The notes under the pieces are model-generated. The model had not been told where the DNA came from, searched no databases, and saw only the letters and a list, made by a program, of their open reading frames with translations. 64,000 nt of DNA, from positions 1 to 64,000 of the forward strand of contig JAJXTO010000008.1 of the NCBI GenBank assembly GCA_021783695.1. Direction: 5' to 3'. The stretch comes from Pseudomonadota bacterium (lineage in GTDB: Bacteria; Pseudomonadota; Gammaproteobacteria; Burkholderiales; Burkholderiaceae_C). How positions within the stretch are numbered: the stretch's first letter is position 1; every line of letters begins with the position of its first letter. Below, in pieces: positions 53,916-60,899 of this stretch. The position numbers and the translations under genes are program-made.

Positions 53916-54680
53916 CTACAGGATCTTGGACAGGAACTGCCGCGTGCGCTCGTGACCGGGGTTGCCGAAGAACTGTTCGGGCGCGGCCGACTCGATGATC
54001 TTGCCCTGATCCATCATCACCACGCGGTCGGCCACTTCGCGGGCGAAGCCCATCTCATGCGTGACGACCACCATGGTCATGCCGTCCCGGGCGAGCGATT
54101 TCATCACATCGAGCACTTCGCCGACCAGCTCGGGGTCGAGCGCGGAAGTCGGCTCGTCGAACAGCATCAGCTTCGGTTCCATGGCCAGCGCGCGGGCGAT
54201 GGCCACCCGCTGCTGCTGCCCGCCGGAGAGCTGGTTGGGATAGGCCCCGGCGCGGTCGGCCAGGCCCACTCGGGCCAGCAAAGCGTGCGCGCGTTGCGCC
54301 GCCTGGGCCTTGGGCATCTTGCGCACAAGCATTGGCGCTTCGATGATGTTCTGTAGTGCCGTCATGTGTCCAAACAGATTGAAGCGCTGAAACACCATGC
54401 CGACATCGGCGCGGTGGCGGCAGATGTCGCGGTCGTGCAGCTCGTGCAGCCGGTCGCCCACCTGCCGGTAGCCCACCAGTTCGCCATCGACCAACAGGCG
54501 GCCGGAGTCGATTTTTTCCAGGTGGTTGATGCAGCGCAGAAAGGTCGATTTTCCCGAGCCGGAGGCGCCCAGCAGGCAGACCACTTCACCGCGTCGCACA
54601 TCGAGCGAAATGCCCTTGAGCACCTCGATCGTGCCGAAGCGCTTGTGCACGCCCTCGGCCCTGACCATGATGTCGCTCAC
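53916..54680 (-). CDS. Polar amino acid ABC transporter ATP-binding protein (GlnQ/HisP-like)
   Basis: [112 protein letters not shown]. Confidence 0.94.
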
Positions 54681-55555
54681 TGCTCGGCCCTCACGCGGGT
54701 GAGCAGCGCGCGCAGGCGCTGCAGTGGCGTCGGAGGCGCCTTGCGCGTGATGCTGCGGCCGAAATGCCGCTCGATATAGAACTGTCCAATGGACAGCACC
54801 GTGGTCACCAGCAGGTACCAGATGCTCGCCACCAGCAGCAGCGGGATGGTGCGATAGTTCACGGCGTAGATGAGCTGTACCGAATACAGCAGATCGCTGA
54901 CGGCGATGACACTGACCAGCGACGTGGTCTTGAGCATCGAGATGGTCTCATTCCCGGTGGGGGGCACGATCACCCGCATGGCCTGCGGCAGCACCACCCG
55001 CCGCATGATCTGCAGCCGGGACATGCCCAGGGCCGCGCCGGCCTCGCTCTGGCCTTCGTCCACCGACAGAATGCCGGCGCGCACGATTTCGGCCATGTAG
55101 GCGCCTTCGTTGAGCCCGAGCGCAAGTATGGCGGCGATGAACGGTGTGATGAGATTGTTGGCGTCGAAGCTCCAGGAGCCGATGCCGATACTGGGATAGA
55201 GCGCGGTGATGTTGAACCAGAACAGAATCTGCACCAGCACCGGCGTGCCGCGAAACAGCCAGATGTAGAACTGGCTCGCGCCGGAGACCAGCGGGTTGAG
55301 CGACAGCCGCATCACCGCCAGCAGCACCCCCAGGGCCACGCCGATGAGCATGGAAATCACCGTGAGTTCGAGGGTCAGCAGCAGACCGTGCAGCACCCGC
55401 ATGGAAAAGAAATACTCGCCCACCACCGACCACTCGAAGCGCGGGTTGGTGGTGAAGGAGTAAACCATGGCCAGCGCTAGCGCAAACACCGCAGCGGCCG
55501 CGATCCAGCGCCCGGGGTGCCGCGCAGGAATGGCCTTGATGTCGTCAGGTCGCAT
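54677..55555 (-). CDS. Polar amino acid ABC transporter permease (HisM/GlnP-like)
   Basis: [90 protein letters not shown]. Confidence 0.93.
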
Positions 55556-55638
55556 CGGTTTGCAGCGTTGGGAAGGACAAAGGTCGGCTCGAGGGCGTCC
55601 CCAGACCCGTTGCATTCGCGTCAGATCTGCCGAGAGGG

Positions 55639-55673
55639 ATGAGAAAACTCGGGGCGGTCCCGCGTTTTCTCAT
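55639..55673. repeat. Hairpin repeat element, copy A
   Basis: ATGAGAAAAC-TCGGGGCGGTCCCGC-GTTTTCTCAT; related to copy B at 60762-60796. Confidence 0.7.
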
Positions 55674-55693
55674 GCGCCGACAGGGACAGAGAC

Positions 55694-56557
55694 TCACTGT
55701 GCGGCGGGGTTGATGGCCGGGTCCTTGATGCCGCCCTGAGTAATGCCCCATTGATGCAGGATCCTGGCGTATTCGCCGCTGGCGATGACTTTTTTCAGTG
55801 CAGCCAGCACGGGCTCGGCCAAGCCGCTGTTCTTGGGAATGGCGATGCCGTAGGGCGCGGAGTTGTAGGGTTCGCCGGTCAGTTTGAACTGCCCGTGCGA
55901 CTTCTCGACGATCCAGGCGGCCACCGGCGAGTCGGCCATGCCTACTTGTGCTCGCCCGCTGGCAATGGCGAGGTTGGCGCCGTTCTGGTCGGGGAATACC
56001 GACACGGTGGCAGCCTTCTTGCCAGCGGCCACGCATTCCTTGCTCTGCTTGGTGGCGTCATCGGCCTGGGTCGTGCCCTTCTCCACGGCGACGGTCATGC
56101 CGCACAGGTCGGTCAGACCATGGATTGACGGCCCCCCCTGCGCCTTGACGTAGAACGAGGTGCCGGCGGTCATGTAACTGACAAAGTCCACCACTTCCTC
56201 GCGCTTCTTGGTGATGGTGAACGACGACATGCTCATGTCGTACTTGCCCGACTGCAGCGCCGGGATGATGCTGTCGAAGCTGGCGTTGACGAAGTCCGCC
56301 TTGACGTCGAGTTCCTTGGCGATGGCCTTGCCCAGATCGACATCGGCGCCGACGACGGTCTTTCCGTCCTTGGCGATGAACTCCATTGGCGCGTACGTGG
56401 CATCGGCTGCGATGGTCAGATGCCCCTGGGCCTGGTACTTTTGCGGCAGGGTGGTCGCCGCTGATGCGATGGGGCTGAAGGCAGCGCCGAGAACGGCCAT
56501 GCCGACTGCGGCGCCGAGCAGGCGCGACGTGGTGGATAAACGGAAACTGCAGGACAT
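55694..56557 (-). CDS. Amino acid ABC transporter substrate-binding protein
   Basis: Signal peptide; LTIAADATYAPMEFIAKDGKTVVGADVDLGKAIAKELDVKADFVNASFDSIIPALQSGKYDMSMSSFTITKKREEVVDFVSY. Confidence 0.93.
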   Translation of the reverse strand: MSCSFRLSTTSRLLGAAVGMAVLGAAFSPIASAATTLPQKYQAQGHLTIAADATYAPMEFIAKDGKTVVGADVDLGKAIAKELDVKADFVNASFDSIIPALQSGKYDMSMSSFTITKKREEVVDFVSYMTAGTSFYVKAQGGPSIHGLTDLCGMTVAVEKGTTQADDATKQSKECVAAGKKAATVSVFPDQNGANLAIASGRAQVGMADSPVAAWIVEKSHGQFKLTGEPYNSAPYGIAIPKNSGLAEPVLAALKKVIASGEYARILHQWGITQGGIKDPAINPAAQ

Positions 56558-56657
56558 GAGGGACTCCAAGGGGTTGTGAACGATGAATTGAGGGCGCAGC
56601 CGCATCGTGCAGCGCATGCCGGTTGATTTTTTTTCCGGGGGCGGTTGGATTGGCTCA

Positions 56658-56696
56658 CCTGTGCCGCAGGGCGCCTCCGTGGCGGTGCGGCACAGG
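56658..56696 (-). promoter_or_regulatory. Long leader hairpin upstream of amino-acid binding protein gene
   Basis: CCTGTGCCGCA ... TGCGGCACAGG, 11-bp perfect stem with inner CGCC/GGCG stem. Confidence 0.6.
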
Positions 56697-56867
56697 CCGA
56701 CATGCTGCCGGAGACAGATCCTCGCTTTCTGTTTTCTGTGTGTATGCGACGGCGCGATGATATGAAAACTCAGCGCAGCACATACAAGATTTGTGCCATG
56801 CGCTGCCCGCGCGCGACCCGCCGGGCGGCGTCGGTCGGTCGGCGCGGGTGGGATGAGCGTGCCGCGG

Positions 56868-60206: not shown

Positions 60207-60797
60207 TCAGCGCGAAGGGGATAAATTCACGGAATCGGCGAAAGTTTGCGCCGCCTCATCTTTGAACGTGTCCGTGGGGGCGAATGCGGTGACTTGGTAG
60301 ACATCGTTACCTTGGCTGAACAACAGCACCCGCTCGCGAACTGCTTTGCCATCCGGCGCCTGGCCGTCGATTTTCAGGTCGAGACTGTCTGGCAGGCCAG
60401 GCGTCGCGTTTTTCAGCACCGCAGCCGAAGACGCCGTGACCCGGCCGCGCACATTGTCAATTGCCGCCTGATGCAGTTGCGCCAAGGCCCTGGCCGCCAG
60501 CGCCGGGCTGGGCAGCCGGGCATGCGCCAGCGCGAAGGTCATTTTGTCAGCCACGCAGCCGGTCATGCTCATCTTGATTTTCTGGTCTGCCAGCACCACG
60601 TCCTGCGCGATCTGCTCCGGCTTGCACGGATAGGTCAGCAGGATGTTGACATCTTTCGGCCGCACATCGCGCCAGTCGAGCGCCGGAGAACAGGCGCTGA
60701 GCAGCGCGACCGCGACAAGCGCCGCCAAACCTGTCGTTGCGCGCCAGGCCCCACGAGGGGGTGAGAAACACTTGGGGCGGCCCGGCGTGTTTCTCAT
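60207..60797 (-). CDS. Putative lipoprotein, unknown function (start uncertain)
   Basis: ALVAVALLSACSPALDWRDVRPKDVNILLTYPCKPEQ...; lipobox LLSAC. Confidence 0.7.
   Translation of the reverse strand: MRNTPGRPKCFSPPRGAWRATTGLAALVAVALLSACSPALDWRDVRPKDVNILLTYPCKPEQIAQDVVLADQKIKMSMTGCVADKMTFALAHARLPSPALAARALAQLHQAAIDNVRGRVTASSAAVLKNATPGLPDSLDLKIDGQAPDGKAVRERVLLFSQGNDVYQVTAFAPTDTFKDEAAQTFADSVNLSPSR
60762..60796. repeat. Hairpin repeat element, copy B
   Basis: TGAGAAACAC-TTGGGGCGGCCCGGC-GTGTTTCTCA; 15-nt loop matching copy A at 12/15 positions. Confidence 0.7.
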
Positions 60798-60899
60798 GCG
60801 CAGGGAGACGGAAAAATGCAAAGCCGACGTCACCGCCGGGTATCGGTCTGTGAATAACATACAAACATTATCCGGCCAGTCCCGAGTCGAGGTGGGTGT

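Follow-up and report, generated by a model that had tools for sequence, protein, structure and literature searches.

The hairpin at positions 55639–55673 of the window, as the whole analysed stretch of 64,000 nt is called here, raises the question of whether a structure between two transport genes has been kept there for a regulatory function or is one copy of a repeat that moves. An earlier note on this DNA had paired it (copy A) with a second hairpin at 60762–60796 (copy B) and proposed a dispersed family with a covarying stem. Both sequences were confirmed letter for letter: the stems are perfect and comprise 10 bp each, the 15-nt loops share 12 nucleotides, and ATGCGC adjoins the hairpin in both copies, just as the note had stated. 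An inverted-repeat search of the window ranked the two hairpins among the longest. The unit described in the note proved to be too small, these hairpins being only the first half of a ~78-nt double-hairpin element, the parts of which are located as follows.

55596–55673, minus strand: copy A, whole element (~78 nt) with hairpin 1, a degenerate C/G block, hairpin 2 and the terminal CTGGGGACG
55639–55673, minus strand: copy A, hairpin 1 (the feature first reported), with the stem ATGAGAAAAC/GTTTTCTCAT and the 15-nt core GCGGGACCGCCCCGA
60720–60797, minus strand: copy B, whole element (~78 nt, or 81 nt for the insertion together with its 3-nt junction)
60762–60796, minus strand: copy B, hairpin 1, with the stem TGAGAAACAC/GTGTTTCTCA and the core GCCGGGCCGCCCCAA

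Read on the minus strand, the element consists of stem 1, the core GCNGGGCCGYCCCAA, stem 1', a central C5/G5 block (CCCCC..GGGGGG), a variable second hairpin and TGGGGGCG, and its whole size is ~78–81 bp. The stem difference between copies A and B, which had been interpreted as paired change at two loci, is real but reflects two related subfamilies, one with ATGAGAAAAC stems and the other with TGAGAAACAC stems, both of which have intact sisters (L086, L088 and L026). The predicted fold of copy A is strong (-37.2 kcal/mol, z -2.9), and that of copy B is no better than its shuffles (z -0.56).

Family, fold and host range

A covariance model built on hairpin 1, of the kind that the earlier note had suggested for a search of the genome, matched copies A and B with E = 4e-8 and E = 5e-10, respectively (both copies are part of the model), and revealed not just two but 38 copies at E ≤ 0.002 in the own draft genome (2.58 Mb, 89% complete), or 48 matches at the looser E ≤ 1. 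With the same model, 15–141 copies were counted in each of 12 congeneric genomes and 1–12 copies in most of the other genera sampled in the same bacterial family. The order-level sample gave matches at E ≤ 1e-4 in 28 of 300 genomes, a patchy distribution across Burkholderiales, and in the class-level sample the matches were confined to the own genome and a single further member of its family; none of the 183 genomes outside the order matched. The hosts among the matches listed were Hydrogenophaga, Rhodoferax, Variovorax, Polaromonas, Ramlibacter, Achromobacter, Delftia, Acidovorax, Burkholderia and some Rhodocyclales, with Bordetella not identified among them; plasmid copies were found in Azoarcus, Acidovorax and Rhodoferax, and phages gave no match to the element.

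The family is rich in intergenic copies, a point that the earlier note had singled out for checking, and the copies occur in both orientations. Tandem arrays were observed with a variable number of units and a unit spacing of 61–84 bp (76–87 bp in named Burkholderiales contigs). The GC content averaged 0.766 over 130 named copies, individual copies ranging from 0.63 to 0.90. One copy (L095, G004:C1:852804–852840) is chimeric, an ATGAG-type hairpin 1 being followed by a TCAAG-type hairpin 2, which suggests an exchange between subfamilies.

The idea that the fold is maintained was borne out, and the stem covariation is real. For 82 distinct hairpins, 88.7% of the cells were paired, compared with 61.5% after shuffling and 42–53% after sliding, and the covariation score was 0.672 versus 0.184 (sd 0.013) for shuffled and at most 0.216 for slid alignments; the alignment was fitted to the covariance model and is therefore biased toward structure, and kinship among the copies inflates covariation counts. 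When 99 copies were picked by the core with no pairing rule, 5–9 of the 9 stem positions formed Watson–Crick pairs, the number being 8 or 9 in 72 of the 99. The 15-nt loop of copy B, used as the sole query with no structure demanded, detected many copies in the genome at 0–1 mismatches, and nearly all of these loop-only matches were flanked by their own complementary arms, a result far beyond what chance would give. Stem 1 has been rewritten freely among copies yet is still paired, and the core GCNGGGCCGYCCCAA is conserved; nearly every stem position shows several Watson–Crick pair types, and in one other genus a wholly different stem (TTTTTCATC/GATGAAAA) encloses the same core. Unless the helix is maintained, several pair types per stem position are difficult to account for; such pairing fits selection at the DNA level or at the RNA level alike. 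A comparison with Rfam gave no match in the window at the gathering score or at E ≤ 1, and only sub-threshold chance matches elsewhere.

Insertions between and within genes

Copy A sits between a binding-protein gene and a permease gene, as the earlier note had described; copy B lies within a gene and not in an intergenic position. The features concerned are the following.

55694–56788, minus strand: solute-binding protein gene (Pfam SBP_bac_3), upstream of copy A
54677–55615, minus strand: ABC permease gene (Pfam BPD_transp_1; ORF and Pfam), downstream of copy A
55583–55588, plus strand: left arm GTCGGC of a probable native inter-cistronic hairpin split by copy A (sequence)
55676–55681, plus strand: right arm GCCGAC of the same probable native hairpin (sequence)
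60207–60860, minus strand: lipoprotein gene (ORF), lengthened by 27 codons through the in-frame copy B in its signal peptide

The permease start is probably the conserved one near 55558, which would place copy A in the intercistronic gap, and there it was apparently inserted between the arms (GTCGGC/GCCGAC) of a native inter-cistronic hairpin. Copy A was missing in all seven congener sequences aligned. A role in raising the ratio of binding-protein mRNA, which had been suggested for copy A, could not be upheld as a conserved function, since the copy is absent from every congener examined and a different native hairpin is located there; copy A could act on mRNA at its locus today, any such effect being incidental to a recent insertion. 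Short hairpins of unrelated sequences were observed at the equivalent spot in congeners (window 55574–55696; L116, L118–L120, L123 and L124). In two congeners, a second copy of the binding-protein gene, ~75% identical, adjoins the first (G009:C337 and G005:C2:1057565–1059197; L128 and L121).

In each of the 11 congeners aligned, the site of copy B was empty and cleanly flanked, most sharply so in comparison with G009. As translated from the congener alignment, the signal peptide reads MLFTDRSPAASSALRFSVSLLVAATLLSACSP in the congener versus ...SVSL[RMRNTPGRPKCFSPPRGAWRATTG]LAALVAVALLSACSP in the own genome; the lipoprotein gene gave no Pfam match. Five genomes were compared over a syntenic region of ~100 kb: the nine copies there occupied nine different places, none of them seen to be shared, and for eight of the nine an empty site could be aligned in one or more of the other genomes (for two of these, at 70476 of the own genome and at 227796 of G007, only roughly). 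The element is young mobile DNA and not a conserved regulatory structure, because the copy B site is empty in 11 of 11 congeners and the copy A site in seven of seven, and because the syntenic copies are genome-specific.

The sharpest empty site was provided by two congeners, G005 and G006, with flanks that are ~98% identical: the empty site reads TTTT-CTCAG and the filled one TTTT-CTC-[78 nt]-CTC-AG. CTC precedes the element in 29 of 40 TCAAG-type and nine of nine ATGAG-type copies, the base just upstream being random, and most copies have CTCA or CTCT at the right junction; the CTC junction was read in the canonical subfamilies, the GC-rich copies not being resolved to CTC, and it is degenerate in copies A and B themselves (CGC/CCC and GC/GC). 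Inverted ends are lacking (TCAAGAAAAC... versus CGCCCCCAGGG..., the ends being taken from aligned copies). By a simple ORF rule, approximately one-fifth of 54 canonical copies adjoin the TGA stop of a same-orientation gene at the CTCA junction.

In-frame copies were surprisingly frequent. Open coding frames were assigned to 38 listings among 122 copies by a codon-usage rule that is crude at high GC; once orthologues, loci that overlap and a single false match to the core are discounted, no fewer than 30 distinct loci remain. The host genes of the in-frame copies include those for MurD, IspD, a DEAH helicase (HrpA), AcrB-type pumps, a CoA transferase and a nitrilase; a Pfam family was present for all ten host genes tested, and one AcrB-type pump holds two tandem copies. 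The nitrilase carries an in-frame insertion of 72 nt, and the same spot is empty in nine congeners. In phmmer comparisons with solved structures, the alignment splits at the element in the nitrilase and in an aminotransferase, where about 25 residues are extra; the split in MurD is less clean. Annotated plasmid proteins with the element in frame were PGK of Acidovorax temperans and Fic of Rhodoferax antarcticus. A coding design of the element was ruled out, as 4.3 of 6 frames per element are open compared with 5.0 in dinucleotide shuffles; coding is thus tolerated, not designed. We propose that the length of the canonical insertion (81 nt, or 27 codons) and its high GC content allow some coding copies to stay in frame and escape purging. 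Four conserved enzymes, the nitrilase, the aminotransferase, MurD and PGK, represent clean natural experiments with a recent insertion of 24–27 residues, its absence in relatives being shown for the nitrilase. For annotation, this is a warning: where unrelated Burkholderiales proteins have such a peptide in common, it is mobile DNA and not a shared domain.

Relation to known repeats and candidate mechanism

Copies A and B very likely belong to a mobile, non-coding double-hairpin family of ~78–81 bp in Burkholderiales, most probably the betaproteobacterial repeat element (BRE), which would be moved in the manner proposed below. The assignment to the BRE of Hot et al. (2011) by itself appears highly probable, matched as it is by the published description (size, hosts, arrays, GC range and intragenic copies) and not by sequence. 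According to the main text of that report, BREs are 75–91 bp long, form tandem arrays, are mostly intergenic with some copies within coding sequences, have a GC content of 64–79%, occur in hosts that include Polaromonas, Delftia, Acidovorax, Rhodoferax and Azoarcus, and have "features of mobile elements" (PMC3110155). The sizes found here agree with this description (81 nt for copy B and for the G005 copy, a tandem spacing of 76–87 and 72 nt for the nitrilase insertion), as do the tandem arrays, the intergenic and some intragenic copies, the GC range and the genera, of which Polaromonas, Rhodoferax, Delftia and Acidovorax are shared through named contigs and Azoarcus, Acidovorax and Rhodoferax through plasmids. 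Neither a sequence nor a fold is given in the main text of the 2011 report, which is also silent on the insertion site, on empty sites and on reading frames (PMC3110155); structure, target, empty sites and protein insertions would be additions to what is known of the BRE. A repeat that was noticed in 2011, apparently without follow-up in the literature searched, now has defined ends, a fold, a target and recent movement. A literature search with the core string gave no relevant match. The repeat had probably been noticed already in Bordetella; in a search for the Bordetella lexA array, no lexA-like frame was found in the named contigs or in G117 and G157.

Repeats within proteins have been described before: Rickettsia palindromic elements (RPEs) are mobile palindromes that occur in frame within genes for unrelated proteins, and almost half of those first reported were intragenic (PMC10969869); some intragenic REPs encode 20–30 aa (PMC3733652). 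The in-frame behaviour is therefore not new in kind, as it is common to RPEs and intragenic REPs. The present element resembles RPEs in its in-frame insertion into unrelated protein genes and differs from them in size (~78–81 bp against ~150 bp), in being GC-rich, in its hosts (Burkholderiales against Rickettsia only) and in having no coding design. We know of no sequence relation between the two.

As to the mechanism, an HUH-type enzyme that acts on single-stranded DNA, like those serving IS200/IS605 and REP elements, would recognise the folded hairpin via the conserved core and the apical pairs, cut at CTC on either side and transfer the strand to a new CTC. The stem would need only to pair, so that its sequence could drift and subfamilies could arise. 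Evidence against this proposed HUH step is that Y1_Tnp was not found in two complete congeners and that the RAYT-like genes are not systematically flanked by copies. The Y1_Tnp family (PF01797) was absent from the own draft and from the complete congeners G004 and G005, which contain 54–74 copies of the element; six of 13 congeneric genomes had a Y1_Tnp gene, and copies of the element did not flank these genes systematically. RAYT-like Y1 transposase genes (a frame of ~285–297 aa) were observed in five congeners (L110–L114), with no consistent flanking element copies. Non-autonomous IS200/IS605 elements are similar in having no inverted ends, subterminal hairpins and a short fixed target, and the present element differs from them in that neither a Y1 transposase (PF01797; complete G004 and G005) nor a longer parent element was found.

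The possibility, raised by the earlier note, that this is a classical REP/REPIN family moved by a RAYT (TnpA-REP) is unlikely, even though the dispersed hairpins, the recent insertions and the presence of RAYT-like genes in five congeners, of which three are rich in copies of the element, are in line with it, and the junctions contain CT, the dinucleotide at which TnpA-REP cuts 5' or 3' of the REP hairpin (PMC8266576). The GTAG/CGTC tag is missing (left foot GTAG in 1 and CGTC in 13 of 119 copies, right foot 0 of 119 for both), a variable stem surrounds a constant core, the unit is a ~78-bp double hairpin and not a 20–40-bp palindrome, Y1_Tnp is missing in the own draft and in both complete congeners, and the RAYT genes have no consistent flanking copies. 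CTC on both sides could also be a 3-nt target duplication instead of a fixed target, and the element would then be a MITE of a DDE transposon, which is short, non-coding and present in high copy number, with empty sites and a 3-nt direct repeat. This origin is quite unlikely: terminal inverted repeats are lacking, a longer autonomous relative was not found, and the direct repeat is nearly always the identical CTC, unlike the varied repeats that random target duplication produces.

Copies might also have spread with no transposase involved, through recombination or slipped replication between hairpins. This would account for the tandem arrays of variable unit number and spacing, for the swapped halves of the L095 chimera and for the failure to find a dedicated transposase in two complete genomes; it is nevertheless very improbable in view of clean, unit-length single insertions in many unlinked places, where CTC is the constant target and the empty sites are intact. 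Selection at copy A for a functional RNA, an inter-cistronic hairpin that stabilises the binding-protein mRNA, is very improbable too. The strong predicted fold of copy A, its position between the binding-protein and permease genes, and the one-fifth or so of canonical copies that abut a TGA stop in the orientation of the gene agree with such a role, but copy A is absent in all congeners examined, where unrelated native hairpins are found, the copy B fold resembles shuffles, copies occur in both orientations and also within coding genes, and neither the T run of an intrinsic terminator nor an Rfam match is present.

With a mobile BRE-like element as the preferred reading, a missing enzyme is predicted. 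A further proposal, possible but doubtful, is that the core and CTC are fixed while the stem is rewritable, that the enzyme would stand outside both Y1/RAYT and DDE transposases, and that the element would be a steady source of in-frame insertions of ~27 residues in core proteins of Burkholderiales. Three loci with a different right part (L091, L313 and L315) were considered as an autonomous parent element and rejected; no transposase ORF was seen in them, and the difference is due to a nested repeat. This other palindromic repeat, of ~80 bp and containing AAGCTGCCGCAGGGCAGCTT, lies within hairpin 1 of these three loci and is found in degenerate form in L289.
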